From Methanobacteriota archaeon (GTDB lineage: Archaea > Hydrothermarchaeota > Hydrothermarchaeia > Hydrothermarchaeales > SZUA-236), in NCBI GenBank assembly GCA_003695745.1, contig RFHW01000063.1, forward strand, positions 1 to 23,100: a stretch of DNA of 23,100 bases, written 5' to 3'. This document shows, one piece after another, positions 426 through 13,961 of this stretch (the first letter of the stretch is position 1; each line of letters begins with the position of its first letter). A program made the translations under genes and the position numbers. The notes under the pieces are model-generated. The model was not told the origin of the DNA and did not search any database. It saw only the letters and a program-made list of their open reading frames with translations.

Positions 426-1241
426 TTAGGAAGGTTTTTCCAAAAGCCGGGTCTTGCGCAGGATCCTTCCATCTGGGCTGTGGGGTGTTCGAAGGAGCGT
501 GTCCTTCTGCTGCTCTATCAGGCGCGCCTCCTCCACCAGGGCCGCCGCTTGCCGCAGACGCTCATGGGCCTCTGCCACGGTCCTGATATACACATCAGGG
601 TCTTTCTCGATGAAGCAGCCCCTCACATTGAGCTTCCCCACCTCCTCAGCCATCTTATAGGCTTTCATGGCATTTTCCCTTGCCTTTTGGTCCTGATACT
701 CGGCGTGCTCCACCGCCTTTTCAGCTGACACTATGATCCTTGGCAGATAGACCTTCCCCTCCTTTAAGCCGGAAAGGGTCTTCCCGATCTCCACCTGCAT
801 CAACCGCACAACCCCGGTGCCCGCCAGCACCTTGAGGATGTCTGCGTTGAAAACCGCCATCTCAGTGGGGTCAAGGAACTCGCGGCGCGCCCCTATCATG
901 GCATCGGCCTTCACAAGGATATAGCCCAGGCCCCTCTCCTCGATAAAGTCCTTTGCCTTCACCGCCGGCCCGTCTGACACCACGATGGCCCGACGCCCCC
1001 TGAGCGCCTCAATCACCTTCCGGGGCCCCGGAGCAGAGGCATTCGGCGTGGCATATAGAACGAGGTCAGGACCCAGCTCTAAAACCCGCTTTGAAACATA
1101 ATCGGCCTCAGCCGGGGACATCTTGGCCCCTGAGGAGACAACCCTCACATCGATGTCTTTTCGGTCCGCACGCTCATCCAGCAGAAGGTCAAGAACAAGG
1201 GATGAGCCGATGTTACCGGTCTTTGCCACAACAAGGAGCAT
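426..1241 (-). CDS. mtd: F420-dependent methylene-tetrahydromethanopterin dehydrogenase
   Basis: This enzyme reversibly transfers hydride between F420H2 and methenyl-H4MPT to form methylene-H4MPT. It is a cytosolic step of the C1 branch of methanogenesis, methane oxidation or H4MPT-linked carbon metabolism. The 271-residue length matches the family (about 275-285). Family-specific stretches are easy to recognise: the N-terminal GNIGSSLVLDLLLDERAD, the central IGARREFLDPTEMAVFNAD, and LRTPHSPDG near the C-terminus. The ATG at 1241 lies 16 bases after the stop of the FrhB-like gene on the same strand, so the two are probably co-transcribed. Adjacency to an F420 oxidoreductase subunit fits shared use of F420H2. 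The ribosome binding site is weak (GGCGG-like). Mtd is a hallmark of methanogen-related archaea and is the main taxonomic clue in the window. Confidence 0.96.
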   Translation of the reverse strand: MLLVVAKTGNIGSSLVLDLLLDERADRKDIDVRVVSSGAKMSPAEADYVSKRVLELGPDLVLYATPNASAPGPRKVIEALRGRRAIVVSDGPAVKAKDFIEERGLGYILVKADAMIGARREFLDPTEMAVFNADILKVLAGTGVVRLMQVEIGKTLSGLKEGKVYLPRIIVSAEKAVEHAEYQDQKARENAMKAYKMAEEVGKLNVRGCFIEKDPDVYIRTVAEAHERLRQAAALVEEARLIEQQKDTLLRTPHSPDGRILRKTRLLEKPS

Positions 1242-1257
1242 CTCAACCGCCCCGCCC

Positions 1258-2346
1258 CTATTCTCTGAGCCCCTCCATGGTCACAGCCATGGAATAGATG
1301 GTTCCGGCCGTATCAAGAAGCTCCTTTGAATCCCTCACTATCGCGGTGTCAGGCTCCCAAGCCCTCTCACCCTGCTTGACAGTGACAACCCTCTCGACCT
1401 CCCCTGTGTCAAGGGCGTATGCAAGGAGCGCTGTCACAACGCCCCCATCCTGCCCCTCTATCTTGTCTGAAACTGCCCTGCCGGCGAGTATCTTTACATA
1501 GCGTCCCAGCTGCTCATCCCTATCATCCCCAGCAAAATCAATGGTCTTTTCAATGGCAGGTATGGGCATGGCCGTCCGCGGGCACGCAAGATAACAGAGG
1601 TTGCAGCCCTCCTTCTCCTCGCCAACCTTCACCGGCCGGTAATCGTCAAACTTGATGATGTCCACCGGGCACACGGCCGCGCAGGCGCCGCATGAGACAC
1701 ATGCCCCTGTGTCGATCACAATGTATTCAAGCTCCGCGAACTGCTTTCCCTTGGCATACTCCACAAAGGCATCAAAGCTCTCATCATTCATGCTGTAGAT
1801 GTGAGGCACCTTTATCCCCTTCTCCTCCCGTCGCCGGGCCTCGGCGAGGTTCTCCTCCCTCTTCTCCTTTGAAAGCCTCTTTATAATCCCCACACCGGGT
1901 TTGACCTCCCCGATGTCCTTAACCTCGATATACCCCTTGGCTGCAGCGCCATCCACAAGCTCAGCCCCTTTCTTCGTCCGCACGATCACAGTGGACCAGC
2001 CCTTAGGGGTTCCAACAGCGCCCACAGACACATCAGCAAGCTCGGCAGAGAAATCAAGACATATCTGGCAGTTGATCCTCACATAGGGATGGGTTTTCGC
2101 AAGGGGGATGTCGGTGACGGAATCGCCGTGGAATAGCTTGAGCTTCCCCTTCTTAATATCGAACCTGTCAATAGACTCCATCTTCACGCCGTAGTCATCC
2201 TCCACAAGGGCGCGCATGCAGGAGAAACTCCAGTTCTCCCGGCAGAACAGCCCAATACTGACTGTATCCTTGAAGTCGCCCACAAGCTCCTGTGTCTTGC
2301 GCAAAGCCTGAATCTGGCAGGGAACACCAACAAATGCAGTGGTCAT
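1258..2346 (-). CDS. FrhB/FpoF-type F420 oxidoreductase beta subunit with circularly permuted domains
   Basis: A 362-residue protein of the FrhB/FpoF/FdhB family, flavin and Fe-S subunits that move electrons between F420H2 and partner enzymes. Residues 1 to about 190 are the domain normally at the C-terminus: VGVPCQIQALRK at 6-17, IGLFCRENWS at 31-40, CQICLDFSAELADVSVGAVG at 93-112. Next comes a ferredoxin region with Cys 216, 219, 222, 226 (CxxCxxCxxxCP) and Cys 248, 251, 255 (CxxCxxxCP). Residues 295-362 are the normally N-terminal FrhB domain (GQDGGVVTALLAYALDTG, ending YSMAVTMEGLRE). Known FpoF/FrhB proteins run 4Fe-4S, N domain, C domain, so this one is permuted. The ATG at 2346 is chosen for its GGAGG six bases upstream and because it falls at the domain boundary. 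The frame stays open upstream to 2562, but that part does not look like FrhB. mtd follows 16 bases after the stop. Confidence 0.88.
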   Translation of the reverse strand: MTTAFVGVPCQIQALRKTQELVGDFKDTVSIGLFCRENWSFSCMRALVEDDYGVKMESIDRFDIKKGKLKLFHGDSVTDIPLAKTHPYVRINCQICLDFSAELADVSVGAVGTPKGWSTVIVRTKKGAELVDGAAAKGYIEVKDIGEVKPGVGIIKRLSKEKREENLAEARRREEKGIKVPHIYSMNDESFDAFVEYAKGKQFAELEYIVIDTGACVSCGACAAVCPVDIIKFDDYRPVKVGEEKEGCNLCYLACPRTAMPIPAIEKTIDFAGDDRDEQLGRYVKILAGRAVSDKIEGQDGGVVTALLAYALDTGEVERVVTVKQGERAWEPDTAIVRDSKELLDTAGTIYSMAVTMEGLRE

Positions 2347-2352
2347 AGCAAT

Positions 2353-2357
2353 CCTCC
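2353..2357 (-). promoter_or_regulatory. Ribosome binding site that fixes the frhB-like start
   Basis: GGAGG on the minus strand, six bases before the ATG at 2346. The upstream in-frame start candidates have no comparable site. This supports a protein that begins directly with the FrhB C-terminal domain. Confidence 0.7.
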
Positions 2358-11694: not shown

Positions 11695-12849
11695 TCACAC
11701 CGGCCGGGCGGTCCCGGCGCTCATCCTTCTGAAGAGCACAGGGCAGAGGGTGGTGGTGAAGATCGCAAGGAAGATGGCGGCAGCCTCGAGAGCCGCGTCT
11801 ATGAGGCCCAGGTTCCTCCCGATCTCAACGGCCGCGATGACAAGGCTCAGGTTTGATGTGAGGAGGATGCCTGATGCTATGGCGTCTTTCACAGGCAGCC
11901 TCCGGTAGTTTATGATGACAGAGGGTATGATCTTCACAAGGAAGGCTGCGGCGATGAGCGGGGGCACGATGGAGAGGCCCTGTTTGTTCAGGAGCAGGTC
12001 GAAGCGGAAGTTCACACCCACCCAGATGAAGAATATGGGTATGAGAAAGCCGTAGCCGATGGCATAGAGCTTCTCCTCAAGGATGGAGCCTCCGCGGAAG
12101 AGCACTGAGAGCAGCGCGCCTGCAAGAAAGGCGCCGAGGATCTCCTCCACACCCACGAGCTGTGAATAGGCCACGAAGGCAAGCATGATCGCGATCGCCG
12201 CCCTGACGCCCACCTCGGTGGGCTGCTCTGGCTTGAACCAGCTTGAGAGGAGGTCGGGGAAATGCCACACCGCCTCCCTGCCTATGAAATATGCTGCCAG
12301 ATAGGCTGCAAAGAGGGAGAGGACCACATATATCTTGAGCTCCATGGGGTCTCTCAGCCACACCGCATAGAAGGCCAGTATGACCACTGCAAGGAAGTCG
12401 GCAACCATCGTCATGAGGAGTATGGACTGTCCTTCCCGTGTCTTGGAGATCCCCATGCTCCTGAGGGTGGGCAGGACCACGCCGAGGGATGTGGTGGAGA
12501 GGATGATGGCCATGAGAAGACCGTAGCCCAGGATGAGCGCTGCCCCGTAGGAGAGCGAGAACATGAGGGTAAAGACAAGAAGCCCTTTCAGGACATCGCC
12601 CCATCCATGGCTTTCGATCTGGTTGAAATCTATCTCAAGACCGGCAAGGAACATGAGGAATACGAAGCCGAGGAAGGCAAGGAACTCGATGACAGGGTCC
12701 TCACCTATCAGGTTCAGGGCGTTCCTGCCAGCCGCCACGCCGAACAGTATCTCCACCACGATGACAGGGGCGCCGATCCTCTTCGAGGTGAAATGGGCGA
12801 TGAGCGCCAGAAAGGCTATGAGGGCCAGCGGGAAAAAGGAGACCTCCAT
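11695..12849 (-). CDS. CPA2-family cation:proton antiporter (Kef/NapA type)
   Basis: A 384-residue polytopic membrane protein with about 11-13 hydrophobic helices across its length. CPA2 features are visible: IGAPVIVVEILFGVAAG in the N-terminal repeat, FLMFLAGLEIDF at about 63-74, VEEILGAFLAGALLS in the second half, and a GILLTSNLSLVIA segment near the end. The family exchanges Na+ or K+ for protons across the cytoplasmic membrane; which ion is used cannot be read here. It has no C-terminal RCK/TrkA domain of its own. Instead the gene immediately upstream, 2 bases away, encodes a separate TrkA-N/Usp protein, which is likely its regulatory subunit. It is the last gene of a four-gene minus-strand run starting with the M42 peptidase. 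Confidence 0.93.
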   Translation of the reverse strand: MEVSFFPLALIAFLALIAHFTSKRIGAPVIVVEILFGVAAGRNALNLIGEDPVIEFLAFLGFVFLMFLAGLEIDFNQIESHGWGDVLKGLLVFTLMFSLSYGAALILGYGLLMAIILSTTSLGVVLPTLRSMGISKTREGQSILLMTMVADFLAVVILAFYAVWLRDPMELKIYVVLSLFAAYLAAYFIGREAVWHFPDLLSSWFKPEQPTEVGVRAAIAIMLAFVAYSQLVGVEEILGAFLAGALLSVLFRGGSILEEKLYAIGYGFLIPIFFIWVGVNFRFDLLLNKQGLSIVPPLIAAAFLVKIIPSVIINYRRLPVKDAIASGILLTSNLSLVIAAVEIGRNLGLIDAALEAAAIFLAIFTTTLCPVLFRRMSAGTARPV

Positions 12850-12851
12850 TG

Positions 12852-13961
12852 CTATCCCCTTGCTATGAGCACGGAGGTGGAGGCCTCCTGTATGATGCTT
12901 GTGGCCACGTCGTTCTTGAGGAGCGTCGCCCCGCCCCAGGGCAGCATCGTAAGCTCGTATTCCCGGCTCTTGACCTTCTTAACGGCCTCGATGTTCCTGT
13001 TACCCTCCACCTCGATCTCTCCAACGGCATATCCCTTCTCGGCGCCGTGCCCCTGCAGGGCCTCCATCGCCGCATCCAGCTCAGGCGAGTCGCCAAGCCT
13101 CAGCACATCCACCGCTGAGGAGAATATCTCCCCGAAGAGCCTTGCCATCTCAAAGAGCCGGGCAACCGCCTCTGAAGGATCGGCCAGGAGAAGGACCCTG
13201 CCATAGGGCCTGAATGTCCTTGCCACGAGTATGGGCGTTGCAGACCTCTCCAGAAGCCTCATGACAATGCTCTTCTTCAGAAGCCTCTCAAAATGGCTCA
13301 TCTCCTCATGGTCCATCACAATGAGGTCCACATCGCCAAGATGCTTCTCAATGGCGGCCACCATGTCGCCCTCCTCGATCTCAAGGTCCACGGGAACGTC
13401 AAGGAGCCTTGCCATCCTCTGCTCCTCGCCAAGATGCTCCTTGCTGTTCCCGATGAGAAGCAGCCCGGCATCGGTCCTCACAGAGATCTGAAGGGCCTCT
13501 TCAAAGGCCTTTTCCATGGTCTGCGGGCCGATGATGGGCACGAGCATCTTTTTTATGGGGAACTCCTCAGTCACCTTGGGATGGGCGAGGGTGCGGATGT
13601 AGTTTGCAACAAGTGTGGTGGGGCAGAGTGTCGCGCTTATCTTCAGCTCCTCAAAACGTCCCACATTCTCAGGGTTCTCAACCCGCGCTATAATGTTCTT
13701 CACACCATATCTCTTTGCGATCCCGGCGACCTCGTAGTTCGTCTTGTCATCGGCAGTGACGGCGATGACCATGTCCGCCTCCCTGATCCCTGCCTTCAAA
13801 AGCACCTCCTCATCCGAGGCGTCGCCCTGGACCACGTCGATGCCTATAAGACCCTGCAGCCTCTCCACCTTCTCAGGGCTCTTTTCGACTATGACGCTGC
13901 GCGGGATGTGCTTTGCAAGGTGATATCCTGTCCGTCCGCCGCCTATTATTATGATCCTCAT
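12852..13961 (-). CDS. TrkA-N domain protein with two Usp-like domains, probable antiporter regulator
   Basis: A 369-residue cytosolic protein. The N-terminal 120 residues are a Rossmann-fold RCK/TrkA-N domain: IIIIGGGRTGYHLAK with GGGxxG at 7-12, VVQGDASDEEVLLKAGI, and ADMVIAVTADDKTNYEVA. In place of the usual TrkA-C domain, the rest appears to be two universal-stress-type alpha/beta units: about 135-265 ending ATPILVARTF, and about 266-369 (GRVLLLADPSEAV, ending STSVLIARG). The pair mimics the end of Usp domains in other CPA2-associated proteins. It likely binds NAD(H) or nucleotides and gates the CPA2 antiporter encoded 2 bases downstream. The upstream GPN gene ends 17 bases before this start. 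The double-Usp tail is called by pattern and should be treated as moderately sure. Confidence 0.88.
   Translation of the reverse strand: MRIIIIGGGRTGYHLAKHIPRSVIVEKSPEKVERLQGLIGIDVVQGDASDEEVLLKAGIREADMVIAVTADDKTNYEVAGIAKRYGVKNIIARVENPENVGRFEELKISATLCPTTLVANYIRTLAHPKVTEEFPIKKMLVPIIGPQTMEKAFEEALQISVRTDAGLLLIGNSKEHLGEEQRMARLLDVPVDLEIEEGDMVAAIEKHLGDVDLIVMDHEEMSHFERLLKKSIVMRLLERSATPILVARTFRPYGRVLLLADPSEAVARLFEMARLFGEIFSSAVDVLRLGDSPELDAAMEALQGHGAEKGYAVGEIEVEGNRNIEAVKKVKSREYELTMLPWGGATLLKNDVATSIIQEASTSVLIARG

Follow-up and report, generated by a model that had tools for sequence, protein, structure and literature searches.

An FrhB-family gene in permuted order upstream of mtd

The window, meaning the whole stretch of 23,100 nucleotides analyzed here (contig RFHW01000063.1, positions 1 to 23,100, of assembly GCA_003695745.1), comes from a Methanobacteriota archaeon of the lineage SZUA-236 within Hydrothermarchaeota. 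On its reverse strand lies a gene of the FrhB family in which the C domain (C) comes first, a ferredoxin part (Fd) follows, and the N domain (N) comes last. The gene stands directly upstream of mtd (Table 1).

Table 1. Coordinates of the permuted gene, its parts, and the adjoining mtd gene in the window
Feature	Position	Strand	Evidence or residues
Permuted FrhB-family gene, 362 aa, order C-Fd-N	1258..2346	-	translation, Pfam, phmmer, structure model
FrhB_FdhB_C domain, residues 3-146	1909..2340	-	cluster cysteines C10, C35, C93, C96
Ferredoxin part, residues 204-262	1561..1737	-	C216, C219, C222, C226, C248, C251, C255, E244
FrhB_FdhB_N domain, residues 288-357	1276..1485	-	QDGG 299-302 and Y351
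GGAGG, ribosome-binding-like motif, 6 bases upstream of ATG	2353..2357	-	sequence
Gap between permuted gene and mtd, 16 bases	1242..1257	-	
mtd	426..1241	-	NF002162, 347.8 bits against a cut-off of 297

An initial annotation had proposed one continuous frame with VGVPCQ at residue 6 and TMEGLRE at the stop, and translation bears this out. The proposed order of domains is also recovered by Pfam, which places PF04432 at residues 3-146 (E-value 3.1e-43; 147.7 bits against a curated cut-off of 23.3), Fer4 models within residues 204-257, and PF04422 at residues 288-357 (E-value 9e-19; 67.8 bits against 22). A phmmer comparison with PDB pairs residues 5-181 of the protein with residues 99-280 of FrhB and residues 280-355 with FrhB residues 3-80, in agreement with the suggestion that the sequence is permuted at the junction of the N and C domains. 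The GGAGG ahead of the ATG at 2346 is present as described, and the close spacing to mtd is confirmed from the coordinates. An alternative in-frame ATG at 2562 would lengthen the protein by 72 residues. This extension is absent from all other listed homologues at 71-83% identity, which are 360-376 residues long when complete (three shorter pieces have 208, 254, and 318).

A structure model of the permuted protein has a pLDDT (predicted local distance difference test) of 94.2, a pTM (predicted template modeling score) of 0.93, and 0 residues below a pLDDT of 50, which accords with the expectation that the halves form one fold. In a structure search, model residues 1-182 superpose on FrhB residues 95-282 and residues 1-268 match FdhB residues 94-382. 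A separate comparison gives a weak match of the ferredoxin part to FdhB residues 340-356 (E 0.0053). Weak matches at ranks 14, 15, and 17 onward, among them hydrogenase SHI and malate synthases, were set aside.

Cysteines C10, C35, C93, and C96, which are the cysteines of the [4Fe-4S] cluster near flavin adenine dinucleotide (FAD) in the FrhB superfamily, are conserved in all 61 aligned rows, as are C216, C219, C222, and C255. Conservation is lower for C226 and C251 (56 rows each) and for C248 (50 rows). Position 244 is Cys in 44 of these rows and Glu in 12, with the window protein among the latter.

Spread of the permuted order and its relation to known FrhB proteins

The homologue search was evaluated for the best 120 of 2499 proteins found, with domain order called by models built from the permuted alignment. 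The C domain precedes the N domain in 119 of the 120, the open reading frame (ORF) of the window included, and the sole exception, P0069, has no C part. A second search, begun from a distant permuted paralogue, contributed 116 additional proteins (120 listed of 213), comprising 8 permuted, 107 canonical, and 1 unclassed. Over all classed rows, which are proteins and locus ORFs and include some copies of one gene, the order is C-Fd-N in 162, Fd-N-C in 131, and N-C without a ferredoxin part in 6. Glu occupies position 244 in 27 of the 162 permuted rows. A scan of named genomes yielded three loci, two of which (L028 and L029) align along the whole of the permuted protein; the third, L030, matches at 28% over query residues 4-228 only and is unclear.

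Such a protein could in principle be produced by an assembly chimera, a frameshift join, or a decaying pseudogene, and the sequence does come from a contig of a metagenome-assembled genome that ends 425 bases beyond mtd. An artifact of this kind can hardly be credited, given that the same order occurs in 119 of the 120 listed rows and in a locus of another genome (L031) with the same mtd neighbor. Furthermore, comparison of the window gene with that of genome G002 gives proportions of nonsynonymous and synonymous differences of 0.129 (pN) and 0.732 (pS, near saturation), which indicates purifying selection. Judged from these sequences, the permutation is real, old, and common to many archaea.

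The annotation had taken 4Fe-4S motifs, N, C to be the canonical order. That order exists, but others do too: FdhB runs N-C-Fd, and FrhB is without a ferredoxin part. The annotation also knew of no FrhB described in the order found here. This is overtaken by the legend to Fig. 9 of an eLife 2013 paper on Frh, which already notes the exchange in the F420-dependent glutamate synthase of M. marburgensis: the N-terminal 182 residues of that protein align with the C terminus of FrhB and another part aligns with the FrhB N terminus. As far as that legend describes it, this F420-interacting subunit (ADL58239) resembles the window protein in having its C part first and its N part last, but it is linked to glutamate synthase genes. 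In PMC3448663, Fsr-N is described as FrhB extended by two N-terminal clusters and FdhB as FrhB extended by two C-terminal ones. Taken with the legend, it suggests that Fd-N-C (Fsr, FpoF), N-C-Fd (FdhB), and C-Fd-N (the window protein) are three rotations of one cyclic order. The matches to FdhB, weak as that of the ferredoxin part is, agree with this reading.

Among the known relatives, FrhB of the F420-reducing hydrogenase shares with the window protein the C-domain fold by superposition, the N domain by sequence, the four cluster cysteines, and QDGG; it differs in its N-C order and in the absence of a ferredoxin part. FpoF/FqoF, Fsr-N, and the carbon monoxide dehydrogenase zeta subunit (8riu) contain the same three modules but in the order Fd-N-C, and FdhB (7bkb_E), by the description in PMC3448663, is likewise ordered differently. 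The window protein falls below the cut-offs of both the FrhB equivalog model (TIGR03289, 224 bits in two pieces against 331.5) and the FpoF model (NF040616, 143.4 bits against 475). PMC3448663 also names FGltS(II), for which adjacent glutamate synthase genes are the mark; the window gene has none, with mtd on one side and GltS on other contigs of its genome (G000). FrhB6 of ANME-1, an FrhB homologue in gene clusters for pyruvate:ferredoxin oxidoreductase (POR), could be compared by description, and the main text of PMC9012536 contains neither 'permut' nor 'domain order'. In the titles and abstract openings of the literature searched, with subscription journals and preprints outside it, no permuted FrhB was found with Mtd or POR, and the links of the permuted protein to these two enzymes look undescribed. 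What is new is the breadth of the permuted form, which occurs linked to mtd, linked to porC, fused to PorB, and beside glutamate synthase or a molybdoenzyme.

Neighboring genes and phylogeny

We surveyed 23 genomes of the host phylum, with neighbors taken from compared coordinates. The link to mtd noted in the window recurs: of the 18 genomes that bear mtd, 9 have it immediately preceded by a permuted gene. In G000 and G002 this is the gene described above. A second permuted paralogue (family f2; 486-493 residues where complete) precedes mtd in seven of its eight loci, and the eighth reaches a contig edge. One mtd-linked paralogue (L051:6210-7673) has about 90 additional C-terminal residues without a Pfam match. 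Outside the phylum, G028 has mtd followed by genes for an ATP-grasp protein, a canonical Fd-N-C FrhB, and a CbiA-type NTPase (L064:6812-10147). MetF (PF02219), considered as a possible partner, occurs in 20 of 29 genomes, each of them among the 23 of the phylum; it was not found in G000 and nowhere adjoins the permuted gene. Its distance to mtd is about 5-6 kb in G005 (C74), G006 (C9), and G011 (C178), and in G021 (C11) it shares a contig with the permuted gene at a distance of about 6.5 kb. A search for Mer gave luciferase-family matches (PF00296), at most candidates for Mer, in 5 of 7 genomes.

In 16 of the 23 genomes porC is the next gene downstream of the permuted gene (which is cut in one of them, G012), and porC also follows it in G028. 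For these loci, Pfam was applied to porC, porA, and porB at L036, and the others were assigned by PF01558 search and BLAST clusters. Of 15 loci examined, all but L047 have porD, encoding a two-motif ferredoxin, between porC and porA; the permuted protein is therefore an extra subunit there and not a replacement for PorD. In G044 a permuted FrhB is fused in-frame to PorB (L062:5036-6667; PF04432, Fer4, PF04422, PF02775), once among all loci, in a frame that follows porC, porD, and porA and runs off the contig end. A full-length permuted gene was not found in G001, G008, G011, and G022 (completeness 90, 62, 62, and 81), and in G004 the gene that follows it is neither mtd nor porC but one encoding a bifunctional nuclease domain.

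In G000 the POR genes are scattered, with porC-porD-porA on one contig and porB beside ftr on another. The succession porB then ftr (PF01913/PF02741) occurs in G000, G002, and G003 (L108:596-2478, L109:1438-3373, and L107:730-2683), so POR and one-carbon-pathway genes are interleaved there; in G001 porB is near a contig end. Additional settings include a third permuted paralogue in four genomes, located between a molybdopterin oxidoreductase with a twin-arginine translocation (Tat) signal, Fe-S proteins, and a multihaem cytochrome (identified by Pfam at L050 and by clusters at the other three loci). At L050:1812-10749 a COX1-like protein is encoded with the cytochrome. In G023 and G045 the permuted gene lies between GXGXG and glutamate synthase genes (Pfam on L049). 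Elsewhere in the window are a class I/II aminotransferase fused to a small cysteine-rich domain (PF04071; 6349-7677) and tandem CPA2-type antiporter-like and TrkA-like genes (11695-13961).

For phylogeny, the 292 rows with all three parts were thinned by identity to 105 (53 permuted, 52 canonical) and rearranged to a common order. Fifty-one permuted rows form one set with a support of 91, and L062 and L063 are loose; these two, with L046 and L047, are long rows. A constraint that holds all 53 permuted rows together scores 36 log-likelihood (lnL) units above the free quick tree, with p 0.873 in the approximately unbiased (AU) test, and a single origin is thus not rejected. A careful tree, built from 34 permuted rows, contains an 18-row clade (99/95) made up of the window pair, 15 POR-linked rows, and the row of G004. 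Within this clade the POR-linked rows and that of G004 form a set with weak support (85/61), to which the window pair is adjacent without belonging, and the f2 mtd-linked group is placed outside the clade. Since that tree is midpoint-rooted and has short inner branches, this placement allows, without demanding, that mtd linkage is ancestral.

Candidate electron path and partners

The analysis shows the domain order, the conservation of the cysteines, the confidence of the predicted fold, and the gene linkage. Following the known chemistry of the family, we infer the cofactors, the use of F420, the assignment of clusters, the direction of flow, and the partner. Hydride from F420H2 would pass to FAD in the FrhB fold, along a path that may be reversible, and FAD would release single electrons to the [4Fe-4S] cluster held by C10/C35/C93/C96. 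From there electrons could reach the ferredoxin part, with one cluster on C216/C219/C222/C255 and a second involving C226/C248/C251 and perhaps E244, and then an outside ferredoxin-type acceptor. The most likely role of the permuted protein is electron transfer between F420(H2) and a partner of the ferredoxin type, which would couple the F420 pool, fed or drawn on by Mtd, to low-potential Fe-S partners. We regard it as probable that the window encodes a circularly permuted FrhB-family member in a tight pair with mtd that has such an F420-ferredoxin role. Whether that role is free-standing and tied to Mtd seems evenly balanced. The tight adjacency in two groups speaks for Mtd; the partner may be either Mtd, in line with the dedicated electron path from methylene-H4MPT that the annotation suggested, or POR, because most rows in the clade of the window protein are linked to POR and not to mtd.

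Several observations weigh against a dedicated pairing with Mtd or against the proposed path. The other 9 of the 18 mtd-bearing genomes showed no permuted gene directly before mtd; in one of them, G007, mtd is split by contig ends. Forcing the two mtd-linked groups into one clade worsens the fit (AU p 0.026), which indicates that mtd linkage arose twice, or that it predates POR linkage and was lost towards POR. Glu at 244, where most rows have Cys, may leave the window protein with an incomplete second ferredoxin cluster. The position of FrhB Lys75, in the FAD loop, is Ile, with the Tyr directly after it kept in all 61 aligned rows. Finally, since alignments in the structure search follow the order of the chain, it is pTM and not a superposition that supports how the N domain is placed against the C domain.

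The protein may instead serve as the F420 subunit of a POR whose genes lie elsewhere in the genome, with electrons running from PorD through the permuted protein to F420, or in reverse during pyruvate synthesis. The 18-row clade, the frequency of porC as the next downstream gene, the PorB fusion, and the scattered POR genes of G000 are all consistent with this proposal, which we consider possible although the odds are somewhat against it. The window gene is joined to mtd, and porC is not directly downstream. No permuted gene lies upstream of porC in G000 (where 301 bases remain to the contig end), G001, or G004, and Glu at 244 occurs in none of the 16 POR-linked rows. Cys is missing from position 226 in 8 of those rows and from position 251 in 9, and the second cluster therefore appears to have been lost in part of that group. 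It is far less probable that the window protein serves a glutamate synthase, despite an order like that of the M. marburgensis protein and the presence, in G023 and G045, of GATase, GXGXG, and GltS genes on either side of the permuted gene. The two GltS-linked rows (L048/L049) are permuted in the same way but are 39-40% identical to the window protein, have Lys at 350, and form a separate clade (100/100) that includes P0189, named Methanobrevibacter; in G000, GltS is on other contigs.

Returning to a role with Mtd, a broader history can be sketched, although we think it unlikely in full. A mobile F420 plug-in module may have arisen from an ancient single permutation and become associated with Mtd early in the phylum; as a later, extra subunit of POR (once fused to PorB) it would have made pyruvate metabolism F420-coupled. 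The lineage of the window would then have kept the Mtd link, with the window protein docking to Mtd as a dedicated F420H2-to-ferredoxin converter.

On this evidence, each of the three possible rotations of a cyclic domain order would exist in the FrhB family. The permuted form is common and occurs next to several enzymes, a fact masked by protein names like 'coenzyme F420 hydrogenase subunit beta'. If it is true that POR or Mtd exchanges electrons with F420 via the permuted protein, then carbon-flow models that assume ferredoxin for POR in these uncultured archaea would change.
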